Assembly (NCBI GenBank): GCA_006226595.1
Contig: SBGP01000069.1
Span: 1 to 64,000, forward strand
DNA from: Deltaproteobacteria bacterium
Lineage (GTDB): Bacteria; Myxococcota_A; UBA796; GCA-2862545
Direction of reading: 5' to 3'
Length of the DNA: 64,000 bases
Shown: positions 19,889-31,572 of the stretch, piece by piece
How positions within the stretch are numbered: position 1 is the first letter of the stretch
Layout: each line of letters begins with the position of its first letter
The notes under the pieces: generated by a model
What the model saw: only the letters and a program-made list of their open reading frames with translations
Databases searched by the model: none
What the model was told of the DNA's origin: nothing
Made by a program: the position numbers and the translations under genes

Positions 19889-21814
19889 TCACTCGTCCGC
19901 CAGGAACTCGTGCTCGTACTGCACCTGGATCTCGAACTGAGGCGGCTCGCCCTCGAGAAGCAGGTTCCGCGCGAGCAGGAAGCCGGCGTGGTGACCGGCG
20001 GTGTCGAGGCGGTTGGTCTGGCCCAGGTCACGGTGCGAGAGCACCACCTCGAACATGCCGTCCTCGTCGGCCTCGATCTCGGTGTGGTTGAGGCTGATGG
20101 TGTGCCGCGTGTAGTCGAGCGACTCCATCCACGCGTTGTACAGCACCAACGAGAAGTAGCGGCTGGTGGGCAGCTTCGCGCGCACCCGCATGCACTGGTC
20201 GCGCCCGAAGCGGTACCAGCACACCTGGTAGGTGTTGTCCGGGGTCGGGAACAGGGCCTCGCCGGGGATCTGGATGAACTGGTTCAGCGCCGCCTTGTTG
20301 GCCATCTGGTAGGCCATGAGCGTGCGCTCGAACACCGCCTTGAGCATGCGCTCGGAGAGGTAGATGCGCCGCGCCATCCAGCTCGCGTCGAGCGGCGTGG
20401 GCGCCGGAGGCTCGCCGAGGAGCTCGATCTCGACGGACAGCGGCTCCTCGGTGTCGCGGTTGGTGAAGTACTGGCGCACCATGACCGCGGTCTCGTCGCC
20501 GTCACCGACGAGGGTCGGGAAGCCCTCCTGCGCGGTGGTCGCGAGGCGGATCTCGAAGCTGCGGTCGGCGTTCAGCGGGATGTCCTGGTCCACGAAGCGG
20601 TTGCCGATCCGACCGCCCTTTCCGTAGTACAGGATGCCCGCGTAGTTCGTGCCCTCGGGGATGCGGCCGCGAAGCGCGTACACGCGCCCGTCGTCGAGGC
20701 GGATCGGCGCGCGCAGGTAGTCGGTGTCCGGGTTGTCCGCGAACATCTTGCGATGCGGCCCCTCGGCGTGGCGGAACTCCGGGTTGTCGACGGTGCTGTG
20801 CTCGACGAAGGTGTCCACACTCTCGGCAAGCATGCGAAGCAGGAAGCGCCGTCCCTCGACCGCGTCGAGGTCCATGGGCAGGTCGATGTCCTTCTCGAGC
20901 TTCTTCGCGTAGTCGAACAGCGACTGCATCGCGTCCGAGAGACGGGCGATCGGCGGCAGGTCGAGGGCATCGAGGTCGTAGCCGAGCTCGGTCGCCAGGG
21001 CCTTGGTCTCGGCGGAGACCGAGCGCGGGTCGAAGCTGCGCAGCCACTTGGTTGCCAGCGACGGGTCGATCTTCTTGCGGCCCGCCATGTTCGGGTCGCC
21101 GATGGCCCGGGCCCCCTTGGGGCCGGAGATCATGCGCTTGTCGTCGCCGTAGGGGTCGGCCATCGCCGGCGCGTACTCGAGCCCGAGGGTGTCGCAGATC
21201 CGCCGGAGGCTGGCCTCGCGGGTCTCGGGCGAGTTCACCAGGTCCTCGTAGGTGACGCGGCACCAGCGGTCCTCGGGCAGCGTGGCCAGGAACTGCTTGC
21301 AGTTCTCGTTGCTGCTGCGCCACACGCCCTCGGCGCCACCCTCGAAATCACCGAGCATCACCTCGGCCATCGGCATGTTCTGCCAGCTCTTGATCACCGA
21401 GCCGGGGTGGCGGACGATCCACACGAAGCGGGCCTCGGGGTACCACTCGAGCAGCTTGGGAAGGCGCTCGGGCATCATCGCCAGGTGCGGGCACTTGTCG
21501 ATGATGAACTTGTCGCCGACGAGCTCCTGCAGGTGGTCGTAGACCTCGGGCACCGTCTTGTCCGCGAGCCGGGCCACGTGCTCCTTGGCCTCGTCCACGG
21601 TGCTGCCGGTGAGCTCGAGCACCGCACGCCGCAGGCCGCCCTTCTCCCAGAAGCGCGCTTCCATGTGCTTGGTGCGCTCGGCCATGGTGTCGTACGGGGC
21701 GAGCACCATCTCGGGAGGCGAGAACAGCTGGGGGTGGCCGGCGAGCATCACGCGCAGCAGCGTCGTGCCGCTGCGACCGGAGCCAATCACGAAGTGGACG
21801 GGGCGTCGGGACAT
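19889..21814 (-). CDS. Sulfotransferase with C-terminal DUF1214-like domain
   Basis: This 641-residue protein has an N-terminal PAPS-dependent sulfotransferase domain: the 5'-phosphosulfate loop GSGRSGTT is at 11-18 and the 3'-phosphate motif RFVWIVRHPGSVIKSW at about 129-144. The domain runs to about 330. The last 240 residues, with NTYQVCWYRFGRDQCMRV, RYFSLVLYNAW, RHTISLNHTEIE and FEVVLSHRDLG, look like the beta-rich DUF1214 fold found in DUF1254/DUF1214 proteins. I recall no common fusion of these two. GGAGGT is 5 bases before the ATG. It lies between two kinase genes on the same strand, with gaps of 23 and 64 bases. The acceptor of the sulfate is unknown. Confidence 0.82.
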   Translation of the reverse strand: MSRRPVHFVIGSGRSGTTLLRVMLAGHPQLFSPPEMVLAPYDTMAERTKHMEARFWEKGGLRRAVLELTGSTVDEAKEHVARLADKTVPEVYDHLQELVGDKFIIDKCPHLAMMPERLPKLLEWYPEARFVWIVRHPGSVIKSWQNMPMAEVMLGDFEGGAEGVWRSSNENCKQFLATLPEDRWCRVTYEDLVNSPETREASLRRICDTLGLEYAPAMADPYGDDKRMISGPKGARAIGDPNMAGRKKIDPSLATKWLRSFDPRSVSAETKALATELGYDLDALDLPPIARLSDAMQSLFDYAKKLEKDIDLPMDLDAVEGRRFLLRMLAESVDTFVEHSTVDNPEFRHAEGPHRKMFADNPDTDYLRAPIRLDDGRVYALRGRIPEGTNYAGILYYGKGGRIGNRFVDQDIPLNADRSFEIRLATTAQEGFPTLVGDGDETAVMVRQYFTNRDTEEPLSVEIELLGEPPAPTPLDASWMARRIYLSERMLKAVFERTLMAYQMANKAALNQFIQIPGEALFPTPDNTYQVCWYRFGRDQCMRVRAKLPTSRYFSLVLYNAWMESLDYTRHTISLNHTEIEADEDGMFEVVLSHRDLGQTNRLDTAGHHAGFLLARNLLLEGEPPQFEIQVQYEHEFLADE

Positions 21815-21837
21815 CAGGACCTCCGAAGGTCGCCAGC

Positions 21838-24800
21838 CTACCCGCTGCGGTCCCGCGACGCCGTGAGCATGTCGTGGACTCGCTGCACCTCCTCGCGAGC
21901 CCCAATGTGTCGTGCCGGAAGATCCGCCTCGGCCCGCGCCAACAAAGCTTGTGCGCGTGCGCGATGACCGCGTTCGAGCCACATGCCGGCCCCCATCGCG
22001 AGGACCTCGACCCAGGTCGCGGGATCGCCCACGGAGCGAGCGAGGTCGATCGCCCGGGTCGACAGCGCGGGCGCCTCGTCCGCGAGCGGCTCGAGCCGCG
22101 CCACCCACGCGAGCCAGTAGCTCTCGAAGCGCGGGTTGTCGGCGCCATGCGCGAGGCTCGCCGCCTCTCGAAGGGCGGCCACGGCCGCCTCGTGGTCGCC
22201 GAGCTTCTCGTGGAGGATGCCGAGGTTGCCGAGCGCGATGCCCTGGTAGCGGCGATAGCCCAGCTGGGTCTGCACCTCGAGCGCCTTCTGCATGCGCGGG
22301 AGCGCCTCTTCGTAGCGCCCCTCCATCGCGTACACGAGGCCCAGCGAGCCCACGGCGTGCGCATGGGAGCGCCAGCGTCGCAGTCGCTGGTGGATGTCGA
22401 TCGCCGCCTCGAAGTACGCGCGTGCGAGGTCGAAGGCGCCCGACTCGAGCGCGAGGTTCCCGAGGTTGCCGAGCACGCCGCCCTCGGTGGCGAGGTCGCC
22501 GGCGCTGCGGGTGAGGACCAGCGCGCGCTCGTAGGCTGCACGGGCCTCGTCCGGCCGCCCGGCCTGGCCGAGCGCCACAGCGAGGTCGGCATGACTCACA
22601 CCTTCCCATCGCCGCTCGCCCGCCAACCGCTGGAGGCGCACGGCCTCCCGGAAGCAGGCTTCAGCCTCGGCGATGCGCCCGCCCTCGAGCAGACAGGTGC
22701 CGCGCTGGGCCTGAATCATGCCCTCGAGGTGCCCATCGCCGGCCTCGCGCGCGCAGCGAAGGCCGGGGTCCAGCGCCGCGAGCGAACCGGCGAGGTCCGC
22801 GTTGCGGTTGCAGGCCAGTCCGAGCACCAGGAGGGCCATGGCCCGGGACGACAGCGAGAGGTCGGCCATCTCGCTCACCCGCTGGGCGAAGTTCACCATG
22901 CGCGCGTGGGCGGCCTGGTTCTCGAGCACGGTCAGGGCGGCGCGGAGACAACGGAGCGCCGTCTCGCCCTGTCCGGCGGCGATCGAGCGCTCCAGCGCGG
23001 CGATCATGTTGTCCGCGGAGCGAAGCAGGTCCGTGCGGTCCTCGGCCGCGTTCATCTCGAGCGCACGCAGGCGCTCCACCGGCCAGCGCTCCGCGTAGAA
23101 CCGCGCATGGCGCCACTCGGCGGCGCGGACCACGTCGTCTCCGCGCTCCGCGAGGCGGGCGGCCGCGAAGTCCCGCACACTGACGAGCAGCCGAAAGCGG
23201 CCATAGTCGGCGACATGGAGCATGGAGCGATCGACGAGAGCCTCGATGGTCGCGAGCACGTCGTCCGCGGAGAGGTCGAGCACGGCCTCGGCGGCGGACA
23301 GCGCGAACGGGCCGGCGAACACGGACAGCTCGGCCAACGCGCGACGGTGCGCCTCGGAGAGCAGCTCCCAGCTCCACGTCAGCGCCGCATTCAGCGTCGC
23401 GTGCCGGTCCTCGCCCGCGGCGCGAAGCACGCCCTTGCCCAGTCGCTCGAGCACGTCCTCGACCGAGAGCACGCCGAGGCGTCCCGCGGCGAGCTCCAAC
23501 GCCAGCGGAAGGCCATCGAGCTTGACCGCAAGCTCTTCGAGGGCCGGGGATGGCGTGAGCTCTACGCCGCGAAGCCGAGCGCGGGCCACGAGCAGCGCCA
23601 CCGCCGCATCGGGGGACAACGGCGCCAGATCGTGGATGCGCTCGTTCGGATGGTCGACCTTCTGGCGGGAGGTCGCGAGCAAGCGCGCCTCGGGCGCAGC
23701 CTCGAGCAGCGGAGCGAGCATGCCGCCCACTCCCGGGATCTGCTCGACGTTGTCGAGCACCACCACGAGCTCTCCCCGCGCGGCCAGCGCCGCACCGAGC
23801 TGCTCGGCGACGTGGCGATCGGCCAGGGGCACGTCCAGCGCACGCCCGAGTGCACCGGCGAGGCCGTCCTCGTCGCGCACCTGGGTCAGGTCGAGGAACA
23901 GTCCGTCGGCTCCGCGGCTCTCGGCCCAGCGGCGGGCCAACCGTGCGGAGAGCCGGGTCTTGCCCACGCCAGCGGGACCGCGGAGGGTGATCAGCCCGCC
24001 CTCGTCGAGCCAGGCGAGAAGCTGGTCCTCGATCTCGCCCCGGCCGATGAAGTCGTCGGGCTCGCCGGGAATCGCCGCACTCCAGGCCGGCAGCTCGCGT
24101 CGCACGCCGAGGTGCTCGACCAGCGAGGCGCCGTCGACCTCGAGCGCGGCGAGGGCGCGCGCCATGTCCTGCATGTCGAGGAATCGCTCGGCCGGTTCGT
24201 TCGCGAGCGCCCGGGTGAGGATGGGCCGCAGCCACGCGGGACCGATTCCGGCGTCGAGCACGTACTCCTGCGTGTCGTCGGGGTCCCCGAAGCTCGTGTC
24301 CAACCAGGTCGAGGCCGATGCCTGTCCTCGCGCACCCGTCGCGAGGTGGAGAAGCGTCGCTCCCAGTGCGTACACGTCCGCGCGTGGGTCGACGGCCCCC
24401 CCGCGGGCCTGCTCTGGTGGCATGTACCCCGGGGTGCCGCGAACCCGGCCGTCCCCGTCGAAACCGCTGGCCCGGGCGATGCCGAGGTCCGCGACCTTCA
24501 CCGCCCCCGCTTCGGTGTACAGCAGGTTGTCCGGCTTGAGGTCGAGGTGCACGAGCCCCAGCGCCTCGTGGGCGTAGTGCAGCGCCTCGCACACCTGCAG
24601 ACCGACGTCGACCACGGCCCGAGGCGGCAGCGGAACCCGCGTGAGGATCGACCCGGCGCAGCGCTCCATCGCACAGAACCACTGCCCATCGACCTCGCCG
24701 ACCTCGTACACGTCGACGAGGTGCGCATGGCGCAGCAGTCCGCCGAGGCGGGCCTCGCGGCGCAGCACCGCGCCATCGCCGGCGAGCACTTTCACGGCCA

Positions 24801-24985: not shown

Positions 24986-26017
24986 ATGGCTGCTGTCCAA
25001 TCTCTGTTCGACGCCCGCATGAGCGGCATGCCGAGGCGACGACTCGGACTCGCCGAGGCCAAGGAGCGCTGGGGCAGCCTGATCGAGCATCGCCTGCGCC
25101 ACGCCGCACAGACCGACGGCTTCCTCGGCGGGATGCTCGACTACCAGCTCGGCACCGGGGGAAAGCGCCTACGCGCGCTGCTCCCCTCGCTCGTCGCCCA
25201 CAACCTCGGCGGGGATGGGCACGCCGCCCTCGACCTCGGCGTCGGCCTCGAGCTCCTCCACAACGCCTCGCTCGTGCACGACGACTGCCAGGACGGCGAC
25301 CTGCAGCGGCGCGGCGTCCCCACACTGCACGCACGGTGGGGCACCGCCCAGGCCATCAACGCCGGAGATGCCCTGATCTTCCGGGCCTTCGCGGCGCTCG
25401 CCGCCACACCGGTCGCCGACCGCGTGCTTCCCCGCGTGTCCGAGGCCATGGTTCGCCTCACCCAGGGCCAGTGCAGCGATCTGCGCCTCCAGGAGACCCA
25501 CCGCGTGCACCGCGCCCAGCCCCTGGCCACCTACCTGGCGATGGCCGAGGCGAAGACCGCGGCCCTGTTCGCGCTCGCACTCGAGCTCGGCGCCATCGCC
25601 GCCGGCGCCCCGAGCAAGGTGGTGGCCGACGCCGGGGACTACGGTCGCGAGCTGGGCCTGTGCTTTCAGGTCCGGGACGACCTCCTCGACGTCGTCGGCG
25701 GCAAGGGGCGCCTGGTCGGCGGGGATGTGGTCGCCGGCAAGCTCACCTTCCTCGTCGCCTGGAGCTACGAGCACGCCCCCGCCGCCGAAGTGCAGCGGCT
25801 GCGCACCCTGCTCGCGACGCCGGCCGACGAGACGTGCGAAGCGATGGTCGCCGAGGCCATCGACCTGCTGCACGCGGTCGGCGCCGTGGAAGCCGCCGTG
25901 GCCTGGCTCTCCGCCAGCCAGGCGCGCATTGCCTCCCATCCGATGCGCGATCTCGTGCCCGGCCTCGCTGAAGCCTTCGCCGCCGCTGTTCCCACTGCCA
26001 TCGGAGCTCCCGCATGA
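24986..26017 (+). CDS. Polyprenyl diphosphate synthase, likely GGPP synthase
   Basis: This 343-residue enzyme of the trans-isoprenyl diphosphate synthase family condenses isopentenyl diphosphate units. The first aspartate-rich motif is DDCQD at 99-103, and the second is DDLLD at 231-235 in FQVRDDLLDVVGG. GGKRLR lies at 58-63. The two residues before the first motif are not both bulky aromatics (SLVHDD), which fits a product of C20 or longer. It is the first gene of an operon whose next gene, a class II diterpene cyclase, overlaps it by four bases and would use geranylgeranyl diphosphate. GGAGGTG precedes the ATG by 4 bases and decides this start over earlier in-frame ones. Confidence 0.9.
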   Translation: MAAVQSLFDARMSGMPRRRLGLAEAKERWGSLIEHRLRHAAQTDGFLGGMLDYQLGTGGKRLRALLPSLVAHNLGGDGHAALDLGVGLELLHNASLVHDDCQDGDLQRRGVPTLHARWGTAQAINAGDALIFRAFAALAATPVADRVLPRVSEAMVRLTQGQCSDLRLQETHRVHRAQPLATYLAMAEAKTAALFALALELGAIAAGAPSKVVADAGDYGRELGLCFQVRDDLLDVVGGKGRLVGGDVVAGKLTFLVAWSYEHAPAAEVQRLRTLLATPADETCEAMVAEAIDLLHAVGAVEAAVAWLSASQARIASHPMRDLVPGLAEAFAAAVPTAIGAPA

Positions 26018-27513
26018 GCCGCGACATGATCGATCTGTTCCAGAGCCTCTTCGACGAGCGACGCGACGCGCGCGGTGCGGGGGCGGTGAGCCCCGCGGCC
26101 TACGACACGGCGTGGGTGGCGATGGTGCCCGACCCCACGGATCCGACGCAGCCGGCGTTCCCGCGCGCCCTGCCCGCACTGCTTGCCATGCAGGAGCCGA
26201 ACGGTGCCTTCGCCGCGCAGTTCCCGTACAACCTCGTGCCGAGCCTCGCCGCGGCCCTGTGCCTCGCACGCATCCCCTGGGGTGGCGAGGAGGCCGAGAA
26301 CGCGCGGCATCGCGTGGTCGGCTGGCTGCGCGAGGCGCTGCCCCGCTGGGACGTGGCACGCTTCGAGGCCATCGCGTTCGAGCTCGTGGTGCCGCACCTG
26401 CTCCGAGAGCTCGATGCGGAGGGCATTCACCTCGCGTTTCCCGCGCGGGAGCGACTGCTCGCACTGTCGGAGGCCAAGCTCGCCCTGCTCGACCCGGAGA
26501 GCCTGTACCGGCGGCCCTCCCCCCTCGTGTACTCGCTCGAGGCCTTCGAGGGACGCCTGGACTACACGCGCTGCGGCGGTCTGAAGCGGCATGGCGGCTA
26601 TGGCGCCTCGCCGGCGGCCACGGCAGCGGCACTGATGCACGGCCACTGGGACCCGGACGCGGTCGCCTGGCTCTCCCGCGTGGAACGCGGCGGTGCGCTG
26701 CCCGTGGTGTGGCCCATCGATCACTTCGAGATGTCCTGGGCGACCTGTGACTTCCTGCGCGGCAACCCCGGTCGACGCCGCACCCTGCCGCGGTCCGTGG
26801 TCACCGAGCTCACGCAGGCCCTGTCGCAGGCGTGCACGCCCGAGGGCGTTGCGACGAGCGCCGGCGCGACGTGGCCCTGCAATGCCGACGACACCGGTGC
26901 GAACCTGGCGGCGCAGCTGTACCTCGGGCTGTCCCCCGACGTCGACGTGCTCTTCCGCTGGTTCCGCGGCACGCACTTCACGACCATGGAGGGGGAGCGC
27001 AACCCGTCGCTCTCCACCAACGCGCACGTGCTCGAGGCCCTCGCCATCGCCGACCCGACGCCGCGGCGCCAGGACGCGGGCGAAGCCGCCGCGCGCTTCC
27101 TGCTCGACAGCCAGGCGGCCGACGGCAGCTTCACCGACAAGTGGCACGCGAGCCCGTTCTACGCCACGGCCTGCGCCGTGCACGCGCTTCGGGCCTGGGG
27201 CGGCGCGCACGTCCAGCCCGCCCTGGCCCGCGCCCGTCGCTGGGTCCTCTCCCAGTTCCGCGACGAAGGCGGCTGGGGGCGCTTCGCCGCGACCTCCGAG
27301 GAGACCGCCTACGCCGTGGCCGTGCTCGGGACCGACCGCACCGAGCCGAGGACCGCCCAGTGCCTGTTCGCCGCCCGCGAGCTGCTCGAGGGCCCGGTCA
27401 TCCGCGCCGACCTGTGGGTCAGCAAGCAGCTGTACACCCCCGAGCGCGTGGTCGAGGCGACCGTCCTCTCCGCCCGCCAGGACCTGGCCGAGCTTCGCCA
27501 TGTCGCAGCCTGA
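26014..27513 (+). CDS. Class II diterpene cyclase (copalyl-diphosphate-synthase-like)
   Basis: This 499-residue protein matches bacterial class II diterpene cyclases in length and motifs. PAAYDTAWVAM (27-37) is their N-terminal mark. The catalytic region reads PCNADDTGAN, with N290-A291-D292-D293 in place of the usual DxDD; the middle Asp, which is the general acid that protonates the substrate, is kept as D292. QW-like repeats such as SQAADGSFTDKW and FRDEGGWGRF follow. It should cyclise geranylgeranyl diphosphate to a bicyclic diphosphate. No DDxxD of a class I synthase is present, so a partner is needed to remove the diphosphate. It overlaps both neighbouring genes. Confidence 0.87.
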   Translation: MSRDMIDLFQSLFDERRDARGAGAVSPAAYDTAWVAMVPDPTDPTQPAFPRALPALLAMQEPNGAFAAQFPYNLVPSLAAALCLARIPWGGEEAENARHRVVGWLREALPRWDVARFEAIAFELVVPHLLRELDAEGIHLAFPARERLLALSEAKLALLDPESLYRRPSPLVYSLEAFEGRLDYTRCGGLKRHGGYGASPAATAAALMHGHWDPDAVAWLSRVERGGALPVVWPIDHFEMSWATCDFLRGNPGRRRTLPRSVVTELTQALSQACTPEGVATSAGATWPCNADDTGANLAAQLYLGLSPDVDVLFRWFRGTHFTTMEGERNPSLSTNAHVLEALAIADPTPRRQDAGEAAARFLLDSQAADGSFTDKWHASPFYATACAVHALRAWGGAHVQPALARARRWVLSQFRDEGGWGRFAATSEETAYAVAVLGTDRTEPRTAQCLFAARELLEGPVIRADLWVSKQLYTPERVVEATVLSARQDLAELRHVAA

Positions 27514-28252
27514 TCCCGCTCACCACGCGAAGTGGCGGAGCCGAGGCCGATGGATGGCCGGCGGGCTCGTGGTCTGCCTGCTCGCCATCGACGTGGCGCG
27601 ACGCGCGGGTGGTGTCGCGGCCTCCCCGCCACTCGATCTCGCACCCGGCGCGGAGCTCGCGGTGCTCGCCCTGCTCGCGGCGCTGTACGCCGTCGGGCAG
27701 AAGGTCGCCGACCTCACGCAGGAGCACGGCCTGGCACCGCGCCCGTGGCTGCACCTGGGGTACGGCCTCACCGCCGTGTGCTTCGCCCTGCTCATCCCGT
27801 TCACCGCCGGCGCGACCATGCTCGTCGTGCAGTCCGCGTTTCACGGCGTGATCAAGGGCAAGGTGGATGCGCCGGCCCACTTCGTCGCCGGACTCGTGAT
27901 CTGTCCGCTCGCCATCGCCGTGTTCGCCGCGTTCCCTGGGGCGCGCGTGGACTGGCTCGCCGCGGGGCTGCTGCTCGCGGGCTCGGTGGCGTGGATGTGG
28001 GCCAACAACGCCCGGCTGGGACTGGGTGACCACCTGTTCCACCAGGTACGGGGGGACTCGATCCTTCTCCTCGCCGTGTGCACCGCCATCGACGCACCCC
28101 GCTTCGCGCCGATCCTGGTCGTCGTCGCGGTCGAGCACCTCGCCTACGCCGCGACGAAGAACCTGGCGATGCGCTTTGCGTGGTACACCGACGGAGCCGA
28201 GCTCGTGCCCGAAGACGGCGACCGCCTGGGTCTCGCCTTCCACCGCCACTGA
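27500..28252 (+). CDS. Seven-helix membrane protein in the terpene operon
   Basis: This 250-residue protein has about seven hydrophobic helices, for example GGLVVCLLAID, ELAVLALLAALYAVG, TAVCFALLIPFTAGATMLVV, HFVAGLVICPLAIAVFAAF and WLAAGLLLAGSVAWMW. I do not recognise its family. It starts 14 bases inside the cyclase gene, so it is co-expressed with it. Polar residues between helices include NNARLGLGDHLFHQ, DAPRFAP and VEHLAYAATKN. The size and topology recall membrane terpene cyclases of the Pyr4 type, and UbiA-type cyclases are another possibility, but no diagnostic motif proves either. It could equally be a transporter or an accessory protein. Confidence 0.7.
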   Translation: MSQPDPAHHAKWRSRGRWMAGGLVVCLLAIDVARRAGGVAASPPLDLAPGAELAVLALLAALYAVGQKVADLTQEHGLAPRPWLHLGYGLTAVCFALLIPFTAGATMLVVQSAFHGVIKGKVDAPAHFVAGLVICPLAIAVFAAFPGARVDWLAAGLLLAGSVAWMWANNARLGLGDHLFHQVRGDSILLLAVCTAIDAPRFAPILVVVAVEHLAYAATKNLAMRFAWYTDGAELVPEDGDRLGLAFHRH

Positions 28253-28255
28253 CGA

Positions 28256-29170
28256 TCAAGCCAGGGGCCGGACCTCGCCCACGGACGCCGCCAGACGTAC
28301 CTGGCGCGTGCTCGGTCGGTGCTCGAAGAAGTCGGCCGCGCCGAGCACGCCCGCCTCTCCGACCTGCTGGTACGCGCGGCACAGGTGCACGGTCAGCGTG
28401 CGCGGCCCGACCCTGAGCATCTTCGCGAGCTCCTCCCGATGCACCCAGCCCTGTTCGGCGGTGGGTAGCCCCGCACTCGCGTCGTCGAGCTTGAGCCGCG
28501 CGAGGGTGAGCATCATGTAGTGGTACGAGCGCGGTGCGAGCTCGCTGCGCCACCCCTCGGAGCGCAAGGCGACGCGCACGTACTCCTCGTCCTGGCTGAC
28601 CTCGAAGTCGACGGTGATGTCCTGAACGTCGGGCATCACGTCGGCGGACTCGAAGGTCGCCTCGAGCGGTGTGGGCAGGAACAGCTGCCAGGGCTGACCG
28701 CCTGCGGCGACGATCTCGCCGTCGTGCACCACGCGCTGTTGCTCGCCGTCCTCGACGACCCAGCCGAGGTCCGGGTCGAAAAGCAAGACCAGCTCGGGTT
28801 CCTCGGAGGATGGGAGGAGGATCAGGCCGTCGGCGGGCTGAACGACGCGCTCTCCGCTGCGGGCGAGGGCCAGCGGCGCGCTCGCGTCGACCAGACGCCA
28901 CTCCGCCTCGCCGGTGCCGAAGGCGAGCTCGTCCCCCGCGTCGAGGCACCGCGCGACACCCGGATCGAGCGCCTCACCGCCGACCCTTGTGCCGTTTCGG
29001 CTACCGAGGTCGCGCAGCACCCACGTCTGACCGGTCCACGTGAGGCTCGCGTGACTCGCCGACACATCTGGTTGTTCCAGCCGAAGCTGGCACGACTGGG
29101 CCCGGCCGATCACCGTGTGCGCCACCAGGGGGACGCGCCGGTGTGAGCCAATATGAAGCAGCTCTCCCAT
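28256..29170 (-). CDS. FHA-domain protein with C-terminal winged-helix-like region
   Basis: This 304-residue protein has an N-terminal FHA domain (about 12-90) that should bind phosphothreonine: VIGRAQSCQLRL holds the conserved Arg, then VSASHASLTW and LRDLGSRNGTRVGG. The middle part is beta-rich. The C-terminal 70 residues, WVHREELAKMLRVGPRTLTVHLCRAYQQVGEAG, look like a helix-turn-helix or winged helix, so it may bind DNA or a partner when phosphorylated. It is divergent from a kinase gene only 32 bases away, which suggests a kinase-reader pair. The ATG at 29170 is chosen because the FHA fold starts within ten residues. Confidence 0.82.
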   Translation of the reverse strand: MGELLHIGSHRRVPLVAHTVIGRAQSCQLRLEQPDVSASHASLTWTGQTWVLRDLGSRNGTRVGGEALDPGVARCLDAGDELAFGTGEAEWRLVDASAPLALARSGERVVQPADGLILLPSSEEPELVLLFDPDLGWVVEDGEQQRVVHDGEIVAAGGQPWQLFLPTPLEATFESADVMPDVQDITVDFEVSQDEEYVRVALRSEGWRSELAPRSYHYMMLTLARLKLDDASAGLPTAEQGWVHREELAKMLRVGPRTLTVHLCRAYQQVGEAGVLGAADFFEHRPSTRQVRLAASVGEVRPLA

Positions 29171-29173
29171 GCG

Positions 29174-29186
29174 GCGTAGTATACGC
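29174..29186. promoter_or_regulatory. Short palindrome in the FHA/kinase divergent gap
   Basis: GCGTA-GTA-TACGC is a perfect inverted repeat with 5-base arms. It occupies much of the 32-base gap between the divergent FHA and kinase-FGE genes and contains GTATAC, which could serve as a -10 element in either direction. An operator shared by both genes is possible but unproven. Confidence 0.35.
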
Positions 29187-29202
29187 AGCCTCTGGAGGGT
29201 TG

Positions 29203-31572
29203 GTGTCGCGGTTTGGTCGCTACGAAGACCTCGGGCTGATCGCGGAGGGCGGCGCCGGCGCCGTACACCGGGTGCGCGACCCGGACCTCCGGCGGACCCT
29301 CGCCATGAAGATCCTGCGCGGCTCCGAGGGCCCACCCGATCCGCGGTTCATCGACGAGGCCCAGGCCACCGCCCAGCTGCAGCACCCCGGCGTCGTGCCC
29401 ATCCACGAGATCGGGCAGCTTCCGGACGGGCGCTGGTACTACACGATGGAAGAGGTCCGCGGCCAGACGCTGGATGCCGCCATCCAGTCCTTGCATCTCG
29501 CCTCGGCCCACGGATGGCAGGCGAGTCGCGAGGGCTGGACCCTCCGCCGGCTCGTCGACGTCGTCCGTCGCGTGGCCGAGGTCATCGCCTTCGCCCACGA
29601 GCGCGGCGTGCTGCATCGCGACCTGAAGCCGCGGAACATCATGCTCGGCGCGTTCGGCGAAGTCCGAGTGCTCGACTGGGGCCTGGTGAAGATCGTCCAC
29701 GGAGAGAGCTCCGCGCACGTCGCGACCGACAGCTCGGTGAGCGACACTCACCACACGCGACACGGCGTGGTCGCGGGAACACCGGCGTACATGGCGCCGG
29801 AGCAGGCGCGGGGCGCGCTCGACGAGCTGGGACCCCACACCGATGTGTACGCGCTCGGTGCCCTGCTCTACGAGCTCCTCGCCGGCCGGCCGCCTTACCA
29901 GGGGCCCACGGGCCGCGCGGTGCTCACCCAGGTGCGCCGCGGAGCGCCTCCGCCGCCATCCAAGCCCTGGCCGCTGCCCGAAGACCTGGTCGCGCTGTGC
30001 TCGCGGTGCATGAGCCGCGACATCGCCGGGCGCCCGGCCTCGGCGGCACGGGTGGCCACCGCACTCGGCGAGTGGCTCGACGGCGTGCTCGCCCGTGAAC
30101 GCGCCGAGGAGCTCTGCGACGAAGCGGACGAGGTCGCCCGCGAGTCGCGCAAGCTCGCGGCGCTCGCGGAGGCCCGAGAGCGCGAGGCGGAGCAGGCCCT
30201 CGCCGCCATCGCCGAGACCGCGCCGGTCGCCGAGAAGATCGACGCGTGGACGCTTCAGGACGAAGCCCGTGACCTCGCGACCCGGGCTCGCGTGCTCCGC
30301 AGCCGAAGCGTGCAGATCCTCGAGTCCGCCCTCCGGCTCGTCCCCGACCTGCACGCGGCCCACACCCGGCTCGCCGACCACTTCCACGAGGAGCATGCCC
30401 GCGCTCTCCAGCTGCGCGACCCCGCCGCCGCCATGGTCAACGAGGAGCGCCTGCGAGAGCACGACCGGGGGCGCTGGTCGGCGTACCTCGAAGGCTTCGG
30501 CGAGGTCGCGCTCCTCACCGAGCCACACGAGGTGTCGGCGCGCGTGTTCCGGTACGTCGAGCACGAGCGACGCCTGGTCCCGGAGCTCGTCGAGTCGCAC
30601 GAGCGCCTGCCCGAGCGGCTGCATCTGACCCACGGGAGCTACCTGCTCGAGCTCTCGGCCCCGGGCCACGACACCGTGCGCTACCCGGTCGAGGTCGAGC
30701 GGGGCGCGGCCTGGTCGTCGACGAACCCCGAGGGCGAGGTCGAGCCCGTGGTGCTGCCGACGGCGGGCACCGTCGCCGAGGGCGAGGTGTTCGTGCCACG
30801 CGGCTGGTTCCGGGCGGCCGGTGACCCGACGACCGTGCCCAACCACCCGGAGCGGCGCCTGTGGGTGCACGACTTCATCCTTCGCGAGCACCCCGTCACC
30901 AACCGCGAGTACATCGCGTTCCTCGACGACCTCGTCGCGCAAGGTCGCGACGACGAGGCCCTGCGCTACGTGCCCCGCGAGCGCACCGGCGAGCGTCAGA
31001 TGTGCTACGGCCGCGGCGACGACGGGCGCTTCTTCCTGCGTCCCGACCCCGACGGCGACGAGTGGTTGCCGAACTACCCGGTGGTCATGGTCGACTGGTT
31101 CTGCGCGCACGCCTACTGCACGTGGCTCGCCGAGACCACGGGCAAGGCCTGGCGTCTGCCTGAAGAGTGGGAGTGGGAGAAGGCTGCGCGTGGCGTGGAT
31201 GGGCGCCACTTCCCCGTCGGCGACTACCTCGACCCGACGTGGGCGATGACCCGGCGCAGCCACAAGGGCCACCCGCTGCCCGCAGAGATCGGCACCTTTC
31301 CCCTCGACCTCAGCCCCTACGGCGTGAACGGTCTCACCGGCAACGCACGGGACTGGTGCCGCAACGAGTCGCTCCGCAACAAGTTCCGCGAGGTGCCGGG
31401 TCCGGACCGGGTGCAGCTCAGCACCGACATGCCGGAGCCCCTGGGCCTGCGCGCGAACCGCGGTGGCAACTGGCTCGCAGAGCCCGTACTGGCTCGCTCG
31501 GCCCAGCAGTTCGCCTACCGCGCCAACGACGTGTTCGCGTACATCACCATCCGGCCCGCGCGCACGCCGTGA
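29203..31572 (+). CDS. Ser/Thr kinase fused to a formylglycine-generating-enzyme (FGE/SUMF1) domain
   Basis: This 789-residue protein has a kinase at about 8-290: AEGGAGAV, K36, HRD at 138-140, and DWG at 158-160 in place of DFG, a variant common in planctomycete and myxobacterial kinases. A charged coiled-coil region (about 300-370) and a beta region follow. The FGE-sulfatase fold begins near 525 (VPRGWFRAAGD), with REHPVTNREYIAFL, VVMVDWFCAHAYCTWLAE (627 onward), WRLPEEWEWEKAARG and LTGNARDWC. Such domains in kinases often bind ligands rather than modify sulfatases. The GTG at 29203 follows GGAGGG; longer starts would run into the divergent FHA gene. It overlaps the next gene by GTGA. Confidence 0.87.
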   Translation: MSRFGRYEDLGLIAEGGAGAVHRVRDPDLRRTLAMKILRGSEGPPDPRFIDEAQATAQLQHPGVVPIHEIGQLPDGRWYYTMEEVRGQTLDAAIQSLHLASAHGWQASREGWTLRRLVDVVRRVAEVIAFAHERGVLHRDLKPRNIMLGAFGEVRVLDWGLVKIVHGESSAHVATDSSVSDTHHTRHGVVAGTPAYMAPEQARGALDELGPHTDVYALGALLYELLAGRPPYQGPTGRAVLTQVRRGAPPPPSKPWPLPEDLVALCSRCMSRDIAGRPASAARVATALGEWLDGVLARERAEELCDEADEVARESRKLAALAEAREREAEQALAAIAETAPVAEKIDAWTLQDEARDLATRARVLRSRSVQILESALRLVPDLHAAHTRLADHFHEEHARALQLRDPAAAMVNEERLREHDRGRWSAYLEGFGEVALLTEPHEVSARVFRYVEHERRLVPELVESHERLPERLHLTHGSYLLELSAPGHDTVRYPVEVERGAAWSSTNPEGEVEPVVLPTAGTVAEGEVFVPRGWFRAAGDPTTVPNHPERRLWVHDFILREHPVTNREYIAFLDDLVAQGRDDEALRYVPRERTGERQMCYGRGDDGRFFLRPDPDGDEWLPNYPVVMVDWFCAHAYCTWLAETTGKAWRLPEEWEWEKAARGVDGRHFPVGDYLDPTWAMTRRSHKGHPLPAEIGTFPLDLSPYGVNGLTGNARDWCRNESLRNKFREVPGPDRVQLSTDMPEPLGLRANRGGNWLAEPVLARSAQQFAYRANDVFAYITIRPARTP

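Follow-up and report, generated by a model that had tools for sequence, protein, structure and literature searches.

The closest described operon is the isotuberculosinol operon of Mycobacterium tuberculosis, which encodes the class II cyclase Rv3377c, the synthase Rv3378c and the GGPP synthase Rv3383c (PMC3470408). By analogy it is the architectural precedent for the three-gene operon described here, since a GGPP synthase and a class II cyclase stand together in both and the terminal step falls, or in our case would fall, to a protein outside class I. The two differ in the protein concerned: Rv3378c is soluble and has a solved fold, whereas ORF3, the third product of our operon, is a membrane protein that matches no solved chain. 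A second point of reference is CseDCS, the bifunctional ent-kaurene synthase of Candidatus Sericytochromatia (PMC11469919). The class II domain of CseDCS is apparently among the nearest to ORF2, the second product of our operon; however, CseDCS carries a class I domain of its own while ORF2 stops after the gamma-beta domains, and its catalytic-base motifs LHS/PNV read VYS/PVV in ORF2.

Membrane proteins offer two further comparisons. In the Pseudonocardiaceae loci L035, L048 and L050 of our census (see below), the class II cyclase is accompanied by a polytopic membrane protein and not by a class I synthase, much as in our operon, but that protein belongs to the UbiA family (Pfam, 2.5e-20) and bears NxxxDxxxD, neither of which holds for ORF3, and the loci include a P450 whereas none adjoins ORF1 to ORF3. 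The bacterial Pyr4-like cyclases (PF25129; PMC13307353) are, like ORF3, compact membrane proteins of similar length; they differ from it in reaction logic, share no sequence or profile similarity with it, and possess an N-I-x-W-E motif and a C-terminal D..Y that it lacks.

The operon and its two assignable enzymes

The window, that is the whole stretch of 64,000 nucleotides analysed here (contig SBGP01000069.1 of a Deltaproteobacteria bacterium, positions 1 to 64,000), holds three overlapping genes on the plus strand (Table 1), just as a sequence-only reading of this DNA had placed them. ORF1 and ORF2 share 4 nt (26014-26017), and the 14 nt shared by ORF2 and ORF3 (27500-27513) imply translational coupling. 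Because both flanking regulator genes lie on the opposite strand, the three genes form an isolated operon; the FHA gene among these neighbours is a multicopy paralogue without a close orthologue. Neither a P450 nor a class I synthase nor any further evident tailoring gene belongs to the transcription unit. A class I synthase, whose absence from the operon was already remarked on in the sequence-only reading, was not found elsewhere in the genome either: PF19086 has no match there. It has none in the control genomes, but the same profile picks up the class I domains that adjoin related cyclases. Beyond the divergent kinase, the window also encodes a sulfotransferase-family protein for which a diterpene alcohol would be a conceivable substrate. 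High GC, the abundance of kinases and the kinase-FGE fusions hint at Myxococcota as the phylum.

Table 1. Genes of the operon and its surroundings, in window coordinates
Feature	Position	Strand	Assignment	Basis or remark
Sulfotransferase-family gene	19892-22609	-	sulfotransferase-family protein	PF13469, 5e-32; outside the operon
Ser/Thr kinase gene	start 24906, runs left	opposite to operon	Ser/Thr kinase with AAA/TPR regions	regulator, flanks the operon
ORF1	24986..26017	+	trans-isoprenyl diphosphate synthase, likely of GGPP type	DDCQD and DDLLD, PF00348
ORF2	26014..27513	+	class II (gamma-beta) diterpene cyclase	NADD at residues 290-293, AFE123 Mg motif
ORF3	27500..28252	+	orphan polytopic membrane protein	250 aa; 232 aa from the start at 27554
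FHA gene	ends 28256	opposite to operon	FHA-domain protein	regulator, flanks the operon
Ser/Thr kinase fusion gene	29143-31569	+	fusion of a Ser/Thr kinase with a formylglycine-generating-enzyme-like domain	

ORF1 has the polyprenyl synthase fold with both Asp-rich motifs, so that its earlier assignment as a GGPP-type synthase is borne out (PF00348, 2e-58). Its top PDB match is geranylgeranyl pyrophosphate synthetase 1wy0 (1.8e-37), it is 36% identical to the CrtE-like synthase in the carotenoid cluster of the same genome (contig 85), and a GGAGG lies a few nucleotides upstream of its ATG. The likely product, judged from these relatives, is GGPP. Positions -5/-4 of the first motif are Ala/Ser, with the same local sequence as in the CrtE-like synthase, and this is compatible with a longer chain, hence the chain length and with it the word "diterpene" are inferred.

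ORF2 can be clearly assigned by homology to the class II diterpene cyclases related to ent-copalyl diphosphate synthases, in agreement with the sequence-only reading. The nearest solved structure is such an enzyme (5bp8, E 3.6e-42 over residues 23-487), Pfam matches are PF13243 (1.6e-13) and PF13249 (1.2e-6), and the AYDTAW motif is present. In class II cyclases the middle Asp of DxDD is the proton donor, and (G/A)xE is the Mg-binding motif of the bacterial enzymes (PMC11795633). Across 87 aligned bacterial cyclases, both Glu123 of the ORF2 (G/A)xE motif and the middle Asp292 of its NADD are invariant, and the change of the first Asp of DxDD to Asn is found in two. This departure from DxDD could mean a weakened cyclase. 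The one other NADD enzyme of the alignment (L038:2282-3655, plus strand) comes from an Anaerolineae MAG, on a short contig that also bears an Rv3378c-like gene. Since VYS and PVV stand where gibberellin-type CPS enzymes have their base motifs LHS (histidine) and PNV (asparagine), the exact product of ORF2 is unpredictable.

In the tree, ORF2 sits on a long branch and groups with Thermoflexales cyclases and with L027, a Sericytochromatia protein in which class II and class I domains are fused and which appears to be the published CseDCS (SH-aLRT 91; ORF2 is 37% identical to L027). Cyclases of the diterpene type are scarce in the phylum: a search of 379 of its genomes with ORF2 returned only ORF2 itself and one diterpene-type cyclase (L006), the remaining matches being short alignments to longer squalene-hopene-type proteins; a third diterpene-type cyclase of the phylum is that of Paraliomyxa (L065). 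The genome of ORF2 also encodes, on contig 112, an unusual cyclase-oxygenase fusion (L144:1806-4886, minus strand), a protein of 1027 aa in which a squalene-hopene-type cyclase with DNDD (PF13243, 2.7e-64) is followed by a C-terminal MpaB/rubber-oxygenase domain (PF09995, 5.2e-25).

Partners of related class II cyclases

The sequence-only reading had stated that a soluble class I synthase normally completes the reaction after a class II cyclase. We compared 86 cyclase loci, made up of 80 loci from 84,980 species together with plasmid loci and L006, and classified the genes within about 5 kb of each cyclase with home-built profiles, representatives being confirmed by Pfam or PDB matches. A class I synthase occurs in 25 of these loci, of which the 80 are those nearest to ORF2 and not a random sample, a count limited to the flank examined. 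Another 32 have a UbiA-family membrane protein and 17 an Rv3378c-like protein, each without a class I synthase, and 12 have none of the three, several of these being short contigs; the set includes near-duplicates such as L028/L029 and L084/L089. The word "normally" was thus too strong and the absence of a class I synthase from our operon is less odd than had been claimed, as only 25 of the 86 related loci have one nearby. Bacterial class II cyclases commonly stand next to a partner from outside class I.

The 32 UbiA-type loci (L035, L048, L050 and 29 more) are actinobacterial, mostly from Pseudonocardiaceae, and many also hold a P450. Two representatives of the UbiA-family proteins were confirmed by Pfam, and the proteins possibly form a group of UbiA-type diterpene synthases or prenyltransferases. 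Rv3378c-like genes (L028:2001-2945, plus strand, and 16 more) occur in Chloroflexota and one member of the Rubrobacteraceae, for the most part directly adjacent to the cyclase; the Rv3378c-like synthase of the Thermoflexales locus L028 matches PDB 3wqm at 7.9e-11.

ORF3, a membrane protein without a recognised family

The codon score of ORF3 in its own frame, 0.35, is on the level of ORF1 (0.31), while the other five frames score between -0.76 and 0.08; this marks it as a genuine gene rather than a frame that is open by chance. Its GC content at the three codon positions is 0.76/0.49/0.89. Translation could equally plausibly begin at an in-frame ATG at 27554, which GAGG precedes by a few nucleotides. 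The protein had been described as one of 250 residues with seven helices, of which the membrane character stands, while the length depends on the start and the helix count may be seven or eight: 7-8 hydrophobic stretches can be discerned, and single-sequence AlphaFold2 models from either start are all-helical, with eight helices followed by a C-terminal one, at low confidence (pLDDT 48.6 and 47.5 for the two start codons). Fold comparison, the check proposed with the sequence-only reading, was made with these models, which are too poor for it because the protein has no homologues, and the best Foldseek match (E 2.6) is noise.

Even when matches with E as high as 10 are admitted, ORF3 has none in Pfam, NCBIfam or the sequences of the PDB, and PHROGs gave only noise. 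No homologue was found in its own class (71 genomes, including the other genome of its genus), its own phylum (379 genomes) or the phyla of three cyclase loci (301, 296 and 329 genomes), a total of about 1,310 genomes spread over four phyla, nor did an exact-pattern search through 84,980 species or searches of viral contigs and plasmids yield one. What did appear were short alignments with per-genome E values of about 1e-3, which were judged to be chance; of the three inspected, one fell in an EF-hand/FG-GAP-like repeat protein, one in an MFS-like transporter and one in another gene but out of its frame. Without homologues the conserved residues of ORF3 are unreadable, and with the gene in its own genome only, a conserved association with the cyclase cannot be shown.

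None of the diphosphate-binding, phosphatase or prenyltransferase motifs is recognisable in ORF3, and a CDP-alcohol motif was sought and is absent. A PAP2 phosphatase, one of the folds named in the sequence-only reading, was rejected at sequence level, given that the motifs KX6RP, PSGH and SRX5HX3D are absent and Pfam yields no match. A class I terpene synthase was rejected at the same level, as DDxxD and NSE are absent and the protein is polytopic where class I enzymes have a soluble alpha fold.

Readings of the third gene

We read the operon as a cassette of GGPP synthase, class II cyclase and a membrane terminator that removes or transfers the diphosphate, a reading to which we give about even confidence. 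By homology, ORF1 would make GGPP from C5 units, and ORF2 would protonate and bicyclise it to a labdane-type diphosphate, such as copalyl diphosphate, with the diphosphate retained. ORF3, translationally coupled to ORF2, would then take up this lipophilic diphosphate at the membrane and either ionise it and quench the cation, hydrolyse it, or transfer the diterpenyl group to an acceptor. In doing so it would occupy the place of Rv3378c in the M. tuberculosis operon and, apparently, that of the UbiA-family protein in many actinobacteria. This terminal step is a proposal from two considerations, the position of ORF3 in the operon and the need of the pathway, and the sequence of ORF3 points to no particular chemistry. 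The cassette reading further agrees with the three overlapping genes running in one direction between divergent or convergent neighbours, and with the diphosphate-removing partners held by the nearest relatives of ORF2, namely the fused class I domain of L027 and the Rv3378c-like protein of L028. Speaking against it are the missing motifs and homologues of ORF3, its confinement to one genome and the possible weakening of ORF2 by NADD. That ORF3 represents a new family of integral-membrane enzymes that remove or transfer the diphosphate of class II products, one more solution in addition to UbiA, Rv3378c and the class I alpha fold, is a tentative proposal and on balance an unlikely one.

An exporter or accessory membrane protein would fit the operon position equally well. 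Such an ORF3 would perform no chemistry and would move the cyclised diterpene or its alcohol into the membrane or through it, or anchor the soluble ORF1 and ORF2 there, which suits a small polytopic protein that lacks a catalytic motif. Housekeeping phosphatases can strip the diphosphate from cyclised prenyl diphosphates, and so could make the alcohol themselves. On the other hand, ORF3 matches no transporter family in Pfam or NCBIfam, and the slot next to the cyclase in related loci is usually taken by an enzyme that acts on the diphosphate, so that we consider this role doubtful, though a serious competitor.

A lower probability still attaches to ORF3 being a species-specific orphan, unrelated to terpenes and co-transcribed by chance. 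Its restriction to a single genome, with neither the other genome of the genus nor the rest of the class holding it, would be expected of such a gene, but the overlap with ORF2 and the coupling it implies speak against chance, and ORF2 itself is almost absent from the phylum, so that the whole operon is patchy and not ORF3 alone.

The least probable case is that of a Pyr4-like or UbiA-type cyclase or prenyltransferase diverged below sequence detection. Size and helix number recall Pyr4-like proteins, as the sequence-only reading had pointed out, and UbiA-family proteins are common beside class II cyclases in Actinomycetota. The Pfam searches covered both Pyr4-TMTC (PF25129) and UbiA (PF01040), and neither matches ORF3. 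For profile comparison, Pyr4-like cyclases were taken from actinobacterial genomes with PF25129 and aligned; hhalign gave ORF3 a probability of 0.3% against them, whereas the control, a divergent Pyr4-like protein that shares about 26% identity with the remaining ones, scored 95.6% against these. The conserved acid motif N-[IVL]-x-W-E and the C-terminal D..Y are absent. Against the UbiA proteins of the cyclase loci the probability was 0.4%, and NxxxDxxxD is absent. Moreover, Pyr4-like cyclases initiate by protonation, as type II enzymes do (PMC13307353). As they protonate alkenes and do not remove diphosphate, an ORF3 of this type would duplicate ORF2 rather than complement it, and could not stand in for a class I synthase as had been envisaged. 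We therefore regard kinship to either family as very improbable.

The operon is then an ordinary start of a diterpene pathway joined to an unassigned last gene, and its novelty rests wholly on ORF3. Many bacterial class II cyclases in our census have no class I partner nearby, so that predicting a pathway on the assumption of such a partner will often give a wrong result. If ORF3 does carry out the terminal step, it would represent a new family of membrane proteins in terpene biosynthesis, one that is invisible to homology-based genome mining.
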